Shown here piece by piece: positions 55,755-61,499 of a stretch of 64,000 nt of DNA. A model generated the notes under the pieces. That model saw only the letters and a program-made list of their open reading frames with translations, was not told the origin of the DNA and searched no databases. This DNA is from Absicoccus porci (GTDB lineage Bacteria; Bacillota_I; Bacilli_A; Erysipelotrichales; Erysipelotrichaceae), in the NCBI RefSeq assembly GCF_003725415.1, contig NZ_RJQC01000001.1, positions 155,611 through 219,610 on the forward strand. The letters run 5' to 3'. How positions within the stretch are numbered: position 1 is the stretch's first letter; the number at the start of each line of letters is the position of its first letter. The position numbers were made by a program, and so were the translations under genes.

Positions 55755-57839
55755 TTAAATGATACCGAACAATAGTTTACCGTAAGTAGGGAATGGCCAT
55801 ACTTCAGCAGATACTAATGTTTCTAATTTGTCGCATGGTTTACGCAATGTGCTCATGGCTGGTAAAATCGCATCACGAACATAGTTTGCGGCTTTTTCAA
55901 AGTCTTCTGTTTCTTCTAATGTTTTGACTTTGGCTTCCAAATCTTTCAAGGCTACATAGGCTTTATCTAGATAGCTTGAAATTTCATCCAGATTGGCTTT
56001 TTCATACGTGGCACTTACGCCCGTTTGTTTCTTCAATGCCAATGTATCAGCCAATGATTGTGTATATTTAGAAACAGCAGGCAAAATGTCTTTACGTGCC
56101 ATACCAACCATTGTACGTGCTTCAATCAATACGATTTTAGTATACTCTTCCATCGTGATTTCGTAACGAGAATATACTTCTTCTTTATTCAAAACGTGTT
56201 GACGTTCAAATAATTCGATGTTTTCTGGTTTGATGGAATATGGCAGAGCATCTGGTGTTGTTGGCAAATTCAATAAGCCACGAGATTCTGCTTCACCAAT
56301 CCAGCTATCATCATAACCATTACCATTGAAGATAATGCGTTTGTGTTCTTTGATCGTTGTTTGAATCAAAGTATGTAACATATCTTCGAAATTATCGGCT
56401 TTTTCCAATGTATCTGCAAATCCTTCTAAGACATCGGCAACAGCGGTATTCAACATGATGTTGCATCCGGCAATCGATGAATTGGATCCTGGCATACGGA
56501 ATTCGAATTTGTTTCCCGTAAAGGCGAAAGGACTTGTACGGTTACGATCGGTCGCATCTTTCTTGATCTTCGGTAAAATATCAATTCCAACACGCATACG
56601 TTCTTGTTTCTTTTGACCATATGGTTGATCCGTTTCGATGGCTTTTAAGACATCGGTTAATTCATCACCTAAGAACATAGAAATGATAGCAGGAGGAGCT
56701 TCGTTCGCACCTAAACGATGATCGTTACCAGCTGTGGCAACACTCAAACGCAATAAGTCTTGATGTTCATCAACGGCTTTGATGACAGCACTTAAGAACA
56801 ATAAGAATTGAGCATTTTCATAAGGTGTATCACCTGGCTCTAACAAGTTCATACCTGTATCTGTAGATAATGACCAGTTGTTGTGTTTACCAGATCCATT
56901 GATATATTCGAATGGTTTTTCATGCAATAAAGCAACCATTCCATGACGTTTTGCGATGCGTTGAATCAATTCCATGGTCAATTGGTTATGATCGGTCGCA
57001 ATGTTTGTGGTTGAGAAGACAGGGGCTAACTCAAATTGAGCGGGAGCAACTTCATTGTGTTCGGTTTTGGCATACACACCCAATTTCCATAATTCAGAAT
57101 TCAATTCTTGCATGAAAGATTGTACACGGGTTTTGATTGTTCCAAAATAATGGTCTTCCAATTCTTGACCCTTTGGACATGGGGCACCAAATAAAGTACG
57201 TCCAGTATACAATAAGTCTTTTCTTTGTTTATAGTCTTCTAGATCGATCAAGAAATATTCTTGTTCAGGACCTACGGTCGTACGTACCGTTTTTACATCA
57301 TCGTGTCCAAACAAATGTAAAATACGAAGAGCTTGGGTATTGATGGCATCCATGCTTCGCAACAATGGCGTCTTTTTATCTAGGGCATGACCTGTATATG
57401 AATAGAAGGCAGTAGGAATACAAAGCACGCCATTTTTAATAAAGACAAAACTCGTTGGATCCCAAGCCGTATAGCCACGGGCTTCAAAAGTAGCACGTAA
57501 TCCGCCACTAGGGAAACTAGAAGCATCGGGTTCTCCTTTAACTAATTCTTTACCAGAGAATTCCAAGGAAATACTGTGATCTTTGCTTGGATTCAAGAAA
57601 CTATCGTGTTTCTCGGCAGTGACACCGGTTAATGGTTGGAACCAGTGTGTGAAATGGGTAGCTCCTTTGGATAGGGCCCATTCTTTCATTCCATGAGCCA
57701 CGGCTTCAGCAATTTTTGGATTTAATGGTTTTCCTTCGCGAATCGTTTTTTCCATTTCTTGGAATGTATCTTTCGCAAGGTACTCTTTCATTTTTGCTTC
57801 ATCAAAGACATTGGAAGCAAATACATCAGTGATTGGCAT
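55755..57839 (-). CDS. glnN: Glutamine synthetase type III
   Basis: 694 residues, the size of GSIII, which is unrelated in length to GSI (about 450). Signatures are [20 protein letters not shown], the ATP/Glu region THWFQPLTG near 82, [20 protein letters not shown] near 270 and the [18 protein letters not shown] motif. It assimilates ammonia into glutamine as a dodecamer. It is the first gene of glnN-asnB-gltB-gltD, behind a strong promoter and an attenuator-like leader, so its expression is likely nitrogen controlled. Confidence 0.95.
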
Positions 57840-57864: not shown

Positions 57865-57920
57865 AAAAAAACGGCGACGAAGACAGAAGAAAAGTTTATT
57901 CGTCAGGCTTCGTTGCCGTT
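57865..57920 (-). promoter_or_regulatory. glnN leader terminator with ANTAR-like hairpin
   Basis: AACGGCAACGAAG pairs with CTTCGTCGCCGTT (one mismatch), followed by seven Ts, all before the glnN start: a leader terminator. Its 5' arm can instead fold as GGC-AACGAA-GCC (57906-57917), a six-base loop with A at 1 and G at 4, the loop type recognised by ANTAR proteins. The two folds exclude each other. Confidence 0.7.
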
Positions 57921-57932
57921 TCTATGTCTACT

Positions 57933-57960
57933 ATTTTACACGGTTCGTTTCTTTTGTCAA
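57933..57960 (-). promoter_or_regulatory. glnN promoter
   Basis: TTGACA (57955-57960) and TAAAAT (57933-57938) on the minus strand with 16-base spacing. Transcription should start near 57926, leaving a leader of about 85 bases that contains the terminator. Confidence 0.75.
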
Positions 57961-58034: not shown

Positions 58035-59189
58035 ATGTATACAAAAGAAGATGTTCTTGAATTTGTTGAAGAACAAAATGTGAAATTTATACGTTGTGCG
58101 TTTTTTGATGTACTCGGAACGCAAAAAAACGTGTCGATACAACCCAGCCAATTAAAAAGAGCATTTGAAACGGGTATATCTTTTGATGGCAGTGCCGTAA
58201 CTGGTTTTAATGATGAAAGTCATAGTGATTTGATCTTAAAACCCGATCCAAACACTATGACCGTATTGCCTTGGCGTTCAATCGATGGTTTGGTCATCCG
58301 TATGTATTGTACGATTTATGATACGGATGGATCGTTGTATAAAAATGATACGCGCTATTTATTGAAACAAGCCATTCAGAAGGCAAAAGATATGGGCGTT
58401 TCCATTCATGTGGGAAATGAATTTGAATTCTATCTTTTTGAACAAGGAACGAAAAATCCGATGGACCAAGCCGGATATATGGATATTGCACCGGATGATT
58501 GTGGTGAAGATGTCCGTCGTCAGATTTGTTCGTATCTTTCAGCCATGGATGTGGAACCAGAAGCCAGCCATCACGAACAAGGACCGGGACAAAATGAAAT
58601 TGATTTCCGCTACCAAGATCCATTGATTGCGGCAGATCATGCAGCTACATTCCGTTGGGTCGTTAAGACGGTAGCCCAATCCAATGGCTTAACGGCTGAT
58701 TTTTCACCCAAACCATTGGAAGATCAGCCAGGTAATGGTATGCATATGCATATTTCTACCAATAACAATATGGAAGCGTTTTTGGCTGGCATCTTAAGAC
58801 GAATCAAAGAAATCACGTTATTCTTAAATCCAGGTGCGGATTCGTATTTGCGTTTAGGCCAACAAAAAGCACCGCGTTATATTAGTTGGGGATATGCCAA
58901 TCGAAGTGCATTGGTTCGTATTCCTGCGGTTGGTACCAAGCGATTTGAATTGCGTTCACCGGATTGTTTGGCCAATAGTTATTTGGCATATACCGTATTA
59001 ATTTATGCGGGATTGGAAGGTATTGAAAATCAGACAGAATTAATGGCACCAACCGATAAGAATATCGAAGTGGATGGTGGCGTATTTGAGCATTTGCCTT
59101 TGTCTTTGGATCAAGCCAAAGAAATGGCTTCACACAGTGTATTTGTGAAGAAATATGTACCAGAAAATGTTTTAAAGAGTTATCTGTAG
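58035..59189 (+). CDS. glnA: Compact type I glutamine synthetase-like protein
   Basis: 384 residues; ordinary GSI has 440-470. The beta-grasp N-terminus (NVKFIRCAFFDVLGTQKNV), the glutamate loop (GNEFEFYLFEQG), HHEQGPGQNEIDFRY, the histidine segment GNGMHMHIS and ANRSALVRIPAVGTKRFELR are present. The shortening lies in the loop after GMHMHIS and at the C-terminus, which ends soon after KKYVPENVLKSYL; the adenylylation tyrosine region is absent. It may be an active short GSI or a sensor. It lies 12 bases upstream of the ANTAR gene. Confidence 0.85.
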   Translation: MYTKEDVLEFVEEQNVKFIRCAFFDVLGTQKNVSIQPSQLKRAFETGISFDGSAVTGFNDESHSDLILKPDPNTMTVLPWRSIDGLVIRMYCTIYDTDGSLYKNDTRYLLKQAIQKAKDMGVSIHVGNEFEFYLFEQGTKNPMDQAGYMDIAPDDCGEDVRRQICSYLSAMDVEPEASHHEQGPGQNEIDFRYQDPLIAADHAATFRWVVKTVAQSNGLTADFSPKPLEDQPGNGMHMHISTNNNMEAFLAGILRRIKEITLFLNPGADSYLRLGQQKAPRYISWGYANRSALVRIPAVGTKRFELRSPDCLANSYLAYTVLIYAGLEGIENQTELMAPTDKNIEVDGGVFEHLPLSLDQAKEMASHSVFVKKYVPENVLKSYL

Positions 59190-59201: not shown

Positions 59202-59771
59202 ATGCGTACGAAAGTATTTGTACTCGCGACCCATCCAATGAAGTTCTCACAGATCCTACCTTCAACGGTTTATAATCCATTGGAAAGTTTTAAGAGTGTT
59301 TCGAGTTTGAAACAACAATTACGCATACAAAGACCGGATATCTTGATCATTCAAGAACCCATCGATGAAGGGGTTTCTTGGCGTCTAGCGTATGAATGGA
59401 AACAAGCGATTGGTTGCGAAATTTTATTGATGGTTCCATTGCGACAATATGATCAGATCGTGTATCAATTAAATGGTTCTGGTGTCTTTGTGGTTTCGGA
59501 TCCATCCAATGCGCAAACGGTGTATCAAGCGTGTGAGCAATTAAGGATCAAGCGTGAAGAAATTCAAAAGTATCAAGGGGAAATCGAGCGATTAAAGAAG
59601 AAGATCCGTAATGATAAATTGGTCAATCGAGCCAAATTGGTATTGATTGAAAGTTATCATTGGTCGGAAGAGAAGGCACATCATTATATTGAACAAATTG
59701 CGATGAATAATTCCATCACCAAAGTGGATGTAGCCAAAGAATTATTGAAAAATGTGGATGAAAAAAAGTGA
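59202..59771 (+). CDS. ANTAR-domain RNA-binding antiterminator (NitR-like)
   Basis: 189 residues. The N-terminal ~115 residues form a pseudo-receiver-like alpha/beta domain (DILIIQEPIDEG) without a clear phosphorylated Asp set. A coiled coil (REEIQKYQGEIERLKKKI, about 118-140) leads to a C-terminal ANTAR domain (LVNRAKLVLIESYHWSEEKA, then IEQIAMNN and ITKVDVAKELL). ANTAR proteins bind leader RNA hairpins and prevent termination. Located 12 bases after glnA; it resembles the NitR arrangement known from clostridia. Likely targets are the leaders of glnN, pyrG and perhaps purF. Confidence 0.82.
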   Translation: MRTKVFVLATHPMKFSQILPSTVYNPLESFKSVSSLKQQLRIQRPDILIIQEPIDEGVSWRLAYEWKQAIGCEILLMVPLRQYDQIVYQLNGSGVFVVSDPSNAQTVYQACEQLRIKREEIQKYQGEIERLKKKIRNDKLVNRAKLVLIESYHWSEEKAHHYIEQIAMNNSITKVDVAKELLKNVDEKK

Positions 59772-59793
59772 GGTCAATGATCTCACTTTTTTG
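59762..59793. terminator. Bidirectional terminator between ANTAR gene and pyrG
   Basis: AAAAAGTGAG and CTCACTTTTT form a 10-bp stem with a 9-base loop; the T/A runs serve both convergent genes and the arms overlap both stop codons. Confidence 0.8.
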
Positions 59794-61384
59794 CAGCCTT
59801 TGATGCAGCAACAAATCCTTTAAATAAAGGATGTGCGTTGTTTGGACGGGATTTAAATTCGGGATGGAATTGAACACCAATAAAGAATGGATGATCTTTG
59901 GCTTCAATGGCTTCCACTAATTTCTTATCGGGGCTAGTACCAACGATAGGGATACCGGCTTCCTCGAATTCAAAGCGATAGGCATTATTGAATTCGTAAC
60001 GATGACGATGACGTTCTTCAATGATTTCTTTTTGGTAACAATGATGGATGTGGCTTTCTTGTTTTAAACTGCATGGATAAGCTCCTAAACGCATGGTACC
60101 GCCTTTGCGGATATCGTTACTTTGATCTTCCATAAAATCAATGATCGTATGTTGGCTGGTTTCATCAAATTCAAAGCTATTGGCATCGGCATAACCCAAT
60201 AGGTCACGAGCTACATAAATAGCCATGATCTGCATACCTAAACAAATACCGAAATAAGGAACTTTGTGGGTATAGGCATAACGAGCGGTTTCAATCATAC
60301 CTTCAATACCACGTTCACCAAAGCCACCAGGTACGATGATACCTGTTACGTCCTTAAATGTTTCTTCAACATTTTCTGGCGTAATTTGTTCTGAATCGAT
60401 CCAATGAATATGGACGTCGGCACCATTCGCAAAGCCAGCATGATATAAGGCTTCGGATACAGATAAATAAGCATCATGCAGTTGGACATATTTACCAACT
60501 AGGGCAATATGAACAGGATCTGTAGCTTGATGGATGGAATCAATTAAGTTTTCCCATTCTGTTAAATTAGCGGGGCGAACTTCACAATTTAATTTCTTAC
60601 AAATGGTATCGGCTAAATGTTGTTTCTCTAACATTAGAGGTACTTCATATAAGGAACTTAAGGTACGGTTTTCAATAACACATTCTTTTTCGACATTACA
60701 GAATAAGGAGATCTTATCTAATACGGACTGTGGAATTTCATGATTGACACGAGCAATGATAATGTCTGGGTTAATTCCATAAGAACGTAATTCTTTGACA
60801 CTGTGTTGGGTTGGTTTGGATTTAAATTCTCGCGATCCTTCCAAATAAGGGATATAGGTAACATGGATAAATAAACAATTTTCTTGTCCTACTTCCAAAC
60901 GAACTTGGCGAATGGCTTCCAAGAAAGGCAAACTTTCAATATCACCGGTCGTACCACCAATTTCGGTGATCACAAAATCGGCATTGGCATGTTTACCGGC
61001 TTGGTAAATGAAATGTTTGATTTCATCCGTGATATGAGGGATGACTTGGACGGTTTGTCCTAAGTATTTTCCTTCTCGTTCTTTATTGATGACATTGGAA
61101 TAAACTTTACCGGTTGTTAGGTTGGAATATTGATGAAGATCTTCATCGATAAAGCGTTCATAATGGCCTAAATCTAGATCGGCTTCCAATCCGTCATTGG
61201 TGACATAAACTTCACCATGTTGAAGGGGAGACATCGTCCCAGGATCGACATTAATATATGGATCGAGCTTTTGTGAGGTAACGCGATAGCCACGGCATTT
61301 TAATAAACGACCAAGACTTGCTGCGCTGATGCCTTTACCAATTCCAGAAACAACACCACCAGTTACAAATATGTATTTTGTCAT
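59783..61384 (-). CDS. pyrG: CTP synthase
   Basis: 533 residues, starting at 61384 ([20 protein letters not shown]) behind AAGGAGG. The amidoligase domain (1-265) has the [11 protein letters not shown]-loop and [15 protein letters not shown]; the glutaminase domain carries GICLGMQIM with the nucleophile Cys near 380 and a His/Glu pair near the end (HPEF). It aminates UTP with glutamine. It is transcribed alone from a promoter just after dapH, through a leader with an intrinsic terminator. Confidence 0.95.
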
Positions 61385-61406
61385 GATTGACCTCCTTATT
61401 ATCATG

Positions 61407-61455
61407 AAAAAATCCGGTCAGTAAAAAGACTGTCCGGAAGGGCTTCTTTGCCGAA
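61407..61455 (-). promoter_or_regulatory. pyrG leader terminator with ANTAR-like hairpin
   Basis: TCCGGACAGT pairs with ACTGACCGGA (one A-A mismatch), then TTTTTT (61407-61438). Just upstream GGC-AAAGAA-GCC (61441-61452) is a six-base-loop hairpin with A1 and G4, as in the glnN leader. TTCGG (61451-61455) can pair with CCGGA of the terminator stem, giving an antiterminator fold. Confidence 0.68.
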
Positions 61456-61471
61456 AAAAATCAACACATTC

Positions 61472-61499
61472 ATGTTACCATGAAAAAAATCGATGTCAA
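61472..61499 (-). promoter_or_regulatory. pyrG promoter
   Basis: TTGACA (61494-61499) and TAACAT (61472-61477) on the minus strand, 16 bases apart, the same spacing as the glnN promoter. The -35 box abuts the dapH stop codon. Confidence 0.7.

Follow-up and report, generated by a model that had tools for sequence, protein, structure and literature searches.

Predicted ANTAR-type hexaloop attenuator in the pyrG leader of Absicoccus porci and its likely connection with nitrogen supply

The stretch of DNA analysed here (the window, 64,000 nucleotides of the Absicoccus porci genome) carries, in this order, glnN for a type III glutamine synthetase (GSIII, minus strand), a glnA-like gene for a type I glutamine synthetase (GSI, plus strand), the gene of an ANTAR protein, antR (plus strand), and pyrG, the gene encoding CTP synthase (minus strand). 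A preliminary description of the pyrG leader had listed a TTGACA/TAACAT promoter with a spacing of 16, a GGC-AAAGAA-GCC hairpin and a terminator, and all of these parts were found again at the same coordinates on the minus strand (Table 1). The promoter matches the consensus at 10 of 12 positions. Two promoter-like sites occur in 181 bases, compared with 0.4 expected, and transcription is predicted to start just past TAACAT. The arms of the terminator, TCCGGACAGT (61438-61429) and ACTGACCGGA (61422-61413), contain one A.A mismatch, and this was the cause of the automatic terminator scan overlooking it. The pyrG start given in the list of open reading frames (61405) was discarded since it sits upstream of the Shine-Dalgarno sequence, and the ATG downstream of that sequence was taken instead.

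Table 1. Coordinates of the genes and leader features in the window and of related elements elsewhere in the genome
Feature	Position	Strand	Basis or remark
glnN, type III glutamine synthetase	55755..57839	-	profile match
glnN leader, hexaloop within terminator 5' arm	57870..57920	-	hexaloop 57906-57917
glnN promoter TTGACA-16-TAAAAT	57933..57960	-	sequence
glnA-like type I glutamine synthetase, upstream of antR	58035..59189	+	profile match
antR, pseudo-receiver + coiled coil + ANTAR domain	59202..59771	+	only ANTAR gene found in the genome
pyrG, CTP synthase	59783..61384	-	ATG at 61384; CTP_synth_N, GATase
pyrG Shine-Dalgarno sequence AGGAGG	61391..61396	-	sequence
pyrG terminator T6 tract	61407..61412	-	sequence
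pyrG intrinsic terminator stem-loop TCCGGACAGT-CTTTTT-ACTGACCGGA	61413..61438	-	folding, sequence
Possible weak antiterminator UUCGG(CA)AAG...CUUCCGGA	61433..61455	-	folding, about -4.2 kcal/mol; excludes hexaloop and terminator
ANTAR-type hexaloop hairpin GGC-AAAGAA-GCC before pyrG	61441..61452	-	loop 61444-61449, A1 and G4
pyrG -10 box TAACAT, TG just before	61472..61477	-	16-nt spacer to TTGACA
pyrG -35 box TTGACA	61494..61499	-	sequence match
amtB leader, two tandem hexaloop-terminator elements behind TTGACA/TAAAAT	C1:221606-221656 (L277)		2 kb past the window end
Hexaloop GGC-AAAGAA-GTC overlapping terminator	C1:242838-242879 (L278)		before cytosine/purine/allantoin-type Transp_cyt_pur permease gene, after PucR-like gene
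Consensus hexaloop in last codons of class-III aminotransferase gene	C8:55648-55694 (L252, L281)		is the terminator 5' arm

The pyrG hairpin has the form by which ANTAR targets are recognised, a hexaloop that starts with A and has G as its fourth base, carried by a stem of 3 bp or more. Loop position A1 lies 22 nt past the -10 box, and in 64 of 65 promoter-linked elements this distance was between 10 and 28 nt. The hairpin also agrees at every position with the consensus of the relatives, C-AANGRN-G. When the pyrG leader was shuffled 20,000 times with its dinucleotides preserved, any A1/G4 hexaloop hairpin appeared in 2.9% of the shuffles and a hairpin of the consensus form in 0.09%, while the window as a whole holds six consensus hairpins when both strands are summed. 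If the prior interest in pyrG is set aside, a frequency of 0.09% for each shuffled leader is no longer negligible once all the leaders of a genome are considered. The core (GCAANGRRGC) of the eut 13-mer AGCAANGRRGCUY (PMC3369931) is present as GCAAAGAAGC in pyrG and as GCAACGAAGC in glnN, with flanks that differ from those of the 13-mer. A second, upstream hexaloop (P1) was looked for in the pyrG and glnN leaders and was seen in neither, and neither the window nor the pyrG loci of the relatives gave a relevant match in Rfam scans.

It had been proposed that pyrG shares the design of the glnN leader. This holds for the hairpin type and for the promoter spacing of 16, and the glnN hairpin (GGC-AACGAA-GCC, 57917-57906) differs from that of pyrG, as stated at the time, in a single loop base, at position 3; the overlap between hairpin and terminator, however, was found in glnN only. 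There the 5' arm and the loop of the hairpin are part of the terminator 5' arm (arms AACGGCAACGAAG and CTTCGTCGCCGTT, at 57908-57920 and 57870-57882), whereas in pyrG a gap of 2 nt separates the 3' end of the hexaloop hairpin from the terminator 5' arm and no base is shared. One hairpin type is present in two geometries, overlapping in glnN and separate in pyrG. The pyrG leader of the window is the sole one with separate hairpin and terminator among about 40 family elements examined, a count to which the clostridial scan described below adds nothing as it demanded overlap. The glnN element of G039 showed a large offset in the scan, yet its hairpin is included in the full terminator. The second GSIII gene of the window genome has no element.

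The 2.2-Mb genome was searched for GCAANGRNGY followed by a T-run after a gap of 14-44 nt, the T-run being required because GGCANNGNNGCC by itself is far too frequent (60 sites). Eight distinct sites were obtained, compared with three for the backward control pattern. They include glnN, pyrG, amtB, the gene of the Transp_cyt_pur permease and the end of the aminotransferase gene, and the remaining three resemble coding sequence or an ordinary terminator. The loop of the permease element, AAAGAA, is identical to that of pyrG, and the element at the aminotransferase gene end precedes a cytidylate-kinase-like gene and an amino-acid permease gene. The most forceful single reason to regard the predicted pyrG hairpin as real is that one pattern retrieves glnN, amtB and pyrG together. 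Several matches were dropped, four as lying within genes (L273, L280, L282, L285), one as an ordinary terminator behind an ABC transporter (L279) and one for its weak AU stem (L286). The sister pattern ACAANGRNGT with a T-run was given no weight, having fewer matches than its own backward control. The purA gene of the window genome has no element, though one is present in G038 and a partial one in G086.

The ANTAR domain encoded by antR scores 50.4 bits with PF03861 (Pfam cut-off 27.3). The AlphaFold model of the protein (pLDDT 95) consists of a pseudo-receiver, a long coiled coil and the ANTAR domain; its best PDB match is RNA-bound EutV (TM 0.72), and AmiR is also among the closest solved structures. 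Residues K149, E160 and M172, with which EutV contacts RNA, correspond to K145, E156 and M168 of antR and are invariant in 55 of 55 homologues. The place of Tyr164 of EutV is taken by His160, a residue that is His in all 55 homologues, as in AmiR. The phospho-acceptor position of the receiver is mostly Asn or Gln, with Asp in 10 of the 55, which suggests that a partner protein, and not phosphorylation, controls the antR product. The product of the adjacent glutamine synthetase gene (GlnA), whose active-site motifs are largely intact in appearance, would be a natural candidate for this partner. The pyrG hairpin is very probably a target of the antR protein.

The family set comprised 146 genomes, of which 42 had a clear ANTAR gene and 40 of these a located pyrG; it includes no second genome of the genus of the window, and the comparison rests on other genera. 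The glnN or glnA leaders of ANTAR-bearing family genomes usually have a single A1/G4 hexaloop overlapping the terminator. Across 1,037 terminator-like sites in these regions, A1/G4 hexaloops numbered 49, as against 9-30 for the 15 other letter pairs, and in the clostridial scan the corresponding figures were 52 and 2-17. The clostridial elements lie upstream of glnN, glnA, gdhA, amtB, a glutamate-synthase-type gene, purC, dapF and pyrG, the gene names having been assigned by eye from the protein starts. The family elements before the expected genes are all closed by C-G and have A1, A2, G4 and a purine as the fifth loop base. The invariance of the elements is partly by construction, since a 3-bp stem and A1/G4 were search conditions, terminator overlap was demanded in the clostridial scan, and clostridial matches with other loops or no plausible gene were removed by eye (for example ACTGGC in L194, before glnN).

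In 18 of the 40 ANTAR-bearing family genomes pyrG follows antR immediately and in the same orientation, and an element is located upstream in 14 of these 18. Ten of the 14 have the operon glnA-antR-pyrG with the element in front and the other four have antR-pyrG with an element, three of them preceded by a short open reading frame resembling the N-terminus of GlnA. In these three (L111, L122, L123) the short frame replaces glnA between the hexaloop leader and antR, and could be either a remnant or a small regulatory partner. The convergent arrangement of pyrG and antR seen in the window recurs in G042, where pyrG has a leader of its own (GAAAC-AAAGGC-GTTTC) that overlaps the terminator. Of 80 further pyrG loci, most of them clostridial, 26 had antR within the fetched flank and nine had it immediately upstream of pyrG, and three clostridial pyrG genes (L172, L197, L222) have a hexaloop-terminator leader of their own. 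In about half of the ANTAR-bearing relatives pyrG has no recognisable element or link with antR. G011 has a homologous pyrG promoter but was left uncounted because its loop is closed by U-G. Two more consensus-like hairpins, near the pyrG start in G057 and G053, overlap the Shine-Dalgarno region and look accidental. The earlier suggestion that one regulator links nitrogen with CTP synthase is supported at the sequence level by the fit to the consensus, by the retrieval of glnN, amtB and the permease gene with the same pattern, and by the recurrence of antR-pyrG operons with an element.

The elements resemble the attenuators controlled by EutV, AmiR and NasR (eut, amiE and nasF; PMC3369931, PMC8934654) in the A1/G4 hexaloop, the short stem and the intrinsic terminator nearby, in the receiver-type protein with a coiled coil and an ANTAR domain, and in the core GCAANGRRGC common with eut. 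However, the targets of those proteins have two hexaloops (P1 and P2), with P2 inside the terminator, whereas here a single hexaloop stands at the extreme 5' end of the transcript. Other differences are that the pyrG hexaloop of the window is clear of the terminator and that the receivers are mostly devoid of the phospho-acceptor Asp. A promoter-like pair was present just upstream of 65 of 81 elements, with the loop at a median of 15 nt past the -10 box, a distance in which a P1 hairpin could hardly be accommodated; an upstream A1/G4 hairpin was found in four of the 81, which is no excess over other loops. EutV was found to engage a single hexaloop at a time and its minimal binding motif has been redefined as one hexaloop, and both hexaloops are stated to be needed for eut antitermination in vivo (PMC8934654). 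The family elements would be natural single-hexaloop attenuators and could serve as a natural test of the dual-hairpin need stated as obligatory for EutV in vivo.

ANTAR regulons acting on nitrogen genes are established in Desulfotomaculum and others (PMC3369931), and a clostridial NitR is cited in PMC4676874. With these the present elements share the location of glutamine synthetase, ammonium transporter and glutamate-synthase-type genes behind hexaloop-terminators and of the ANTAR gene beside glnA. They differ in the antR-pyrG operons and the occasional purA or purC elements; pyrG is unnamed among the targets in PMC3369931 and PMC4676874. A literature search outside subscription journals yielded no report of ANTAR in connection with CTP synthase or pyrG.

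The direction in which antR would act on pyrG was considered from the folding of the leader. The hexaloop, with its stem of 3 bp, reaches about -3.9 kcal/mol and has as competitors a 5' hairpin (-4.3 kcal/mol) and the pairing of UUCGG with CCGGA, which as UUCGG(CA)AAG:CUUCCGGA reaches -4.2 kcal/mol. This alternative fold, put forward in the preliminary description, is possible on paper, with TTCGG at 61455-61451 and the partner stretch CTTCCGGA at 61440-61433, but it is too weak unaided against a terminator of about -12 kcal/mol. As the hexaloop and the terminator of pyrG share no bases, the published mechanism of mutual exclusion is not directly applicable. With an ANTAR protein sitting two bases upstream, the terminator could be hindered, or it could be favoured through the exclusion of UUCGG:CCGGA. 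An effect of the second kind would mean that the free leader forms UUCGG(CA)AAG:CUUCCGGA and partly spares pyrG, and that ANTAR on the hexaloop blocks this pairing, lets the terminator form and lowers pyrG when nitrogen is short. Such an arrangement would save glutamine, of which CTP synthase is a consumer, and is in line with the hexaloop and UUCGG:CCGGA sharing bases and being mutually exclusive while hexaloop and terminator can coexist. We hold it to be unlikely, given that the antiterminator is some 7-8 kcal/mol weaker than the terminator and that pyrG of the relatives is either in an operon with glnA and antR or preceded by the overlapping design, and activation is expected from either arrangement. 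The geometry of the window is itself neutral; the relatives argue for activation, and ANTAR-dependent antitermination is the favoured reading for pyrG.

Control by pyrimidines was also considered. Three pyrimidine-type pyrG leaders were recognised in the family, one with GGGC at the expected start (six members, all without an ANTAR gene), one with an A7-A10 run and then C inside the terminator (about a dozen more members) and one of the CGGCCG type (about ten members). None of the three is seen in the pyrG leader of the window. They are nearly absent from ANTAR-bearing genomes, with G141 as the exception and a match in G042 that lies upstream of the promoter. The exclusion is striking, in counts made over the genomes as they stand with shared descent included, and it suggests that one regulatory input was exchanged for another in evolution.

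The pyrG gene of Bacillus subtilis is subject to attenuation via CTP-sensitive reiterative transcription, as cited in PMC4448216, and like the window it has a leader terminator upstream of pyrG. Reiterative transcription of this type, with G addition at a GGGC start, is highly improbable for the window even though a C/U-rich stretch, GCCCUUCC, is present on the 5' side of the terminator. GGGC is missing from the predicted start region GAATGTGTTGA, in contrast to the six ANTAR-less family members, which bears out the earlier remark that no G/C run can be identified at the leader start, and there is no sign of CTP sensing. A second explanation would take the hairpin as a product of chance or decay, and the leader as a plain terminator or as one under some other pyrimidine control, for example slippage on the U7 that is followed by C in the leader. 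The 3-bp stem, the separation from the terminator and the lack of a genus-level comparison speak for it, as does the existence of several pyrimidine-type leaders among the relatives. We nevertheless give it a low probability, for the hairpin matches the consensus, with a shuffle frequency of 0.0009, at the very gene most often linked to antR, and the other three leader types are missing here and confined almost wholly to genomes without ANTAR.

It is fairly probable, in our judgement, that the leader acts as a transcription attenuator of pyrG within the ANTAR nitrogen regulon of the genome, in which antR is active when nitrogen is short and read-through into pyrG is raised. RNA polymerase would start just past TAACAT, make GGC-AAAGAA-GCC early and then reach the terminator before pyrG. 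On shortage of nitrogen (glutamine) the antR protein would become active, probably in the form of a coiled-coil dimer that a partner releases or switches, the best candidate for this partner being the glnA-encoded neighbour. The antR protein would bind the hexaloop on its emergence from the polymerase, the terminator 2 nt downstream would form less readily, and pyrG would be transcribed along with glnN and amtB. As the hairpin is common to glutamine synthetase and ammonium-transporter genes, nucleotide synthesis is apparently wired to nitrogen supply; if this is true, CTP synthesis would answer to that supply and not to CTP only, via an RNA-binding protein whose target is very short. More tentatively, and with somewhat less than even chances in our estimate, CTP synthase may be one of the core targets of a single-hexaloop ANTAR nitrogen regulon that is widespread in Erysipelotrichaceae and Clostridia and replaces the usual CTP-sensing pyrG attenuators. 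The window element, with its separate hairpin and terminator, would then be a rearranged form and a second mode of ANTAR control, without mutual exclusion or with reversed sign.

Some further observations were made in the relatives. The A7-A10 run, the C and a small hairpin are all inside the terminator stem in the pyrG leaders L014, L020, L023-L025, L028, L030, L137, L138, L140, L142 and L155, which have no Rfam match and may possibly act by CTP-dependent pausing or slippage. In L141, L144-L151, L154 and L156 (about ten ANTAR-less genomes) the conserved sequences GUACGGCCGUAC ... GGUUUUAAAACCC ... GAUGUUCUUUUU precede pyrG, again with no Rfam match, and are a candidate for an undescribed cis-regulatory RNA or operator. 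Elements of the hexaloop-terminator kind precede purA and purC (L105, position 474, plus strand; L171 and L175, position 886, plus strand) and hint at purine genes as further targets in some genomes. An element before dapF (L197, position 4421, minus strand) occurs in a clostridial MAG of 1.7 Mb, perhaps incomplete, in which no ANTAR gene was found. Finally, a second GSIII gene is placed directly 3' of pyrG in G001, G021, G070, G088, G101, G112 and others, another linkage of CTP synthase with glutamine synthetase.
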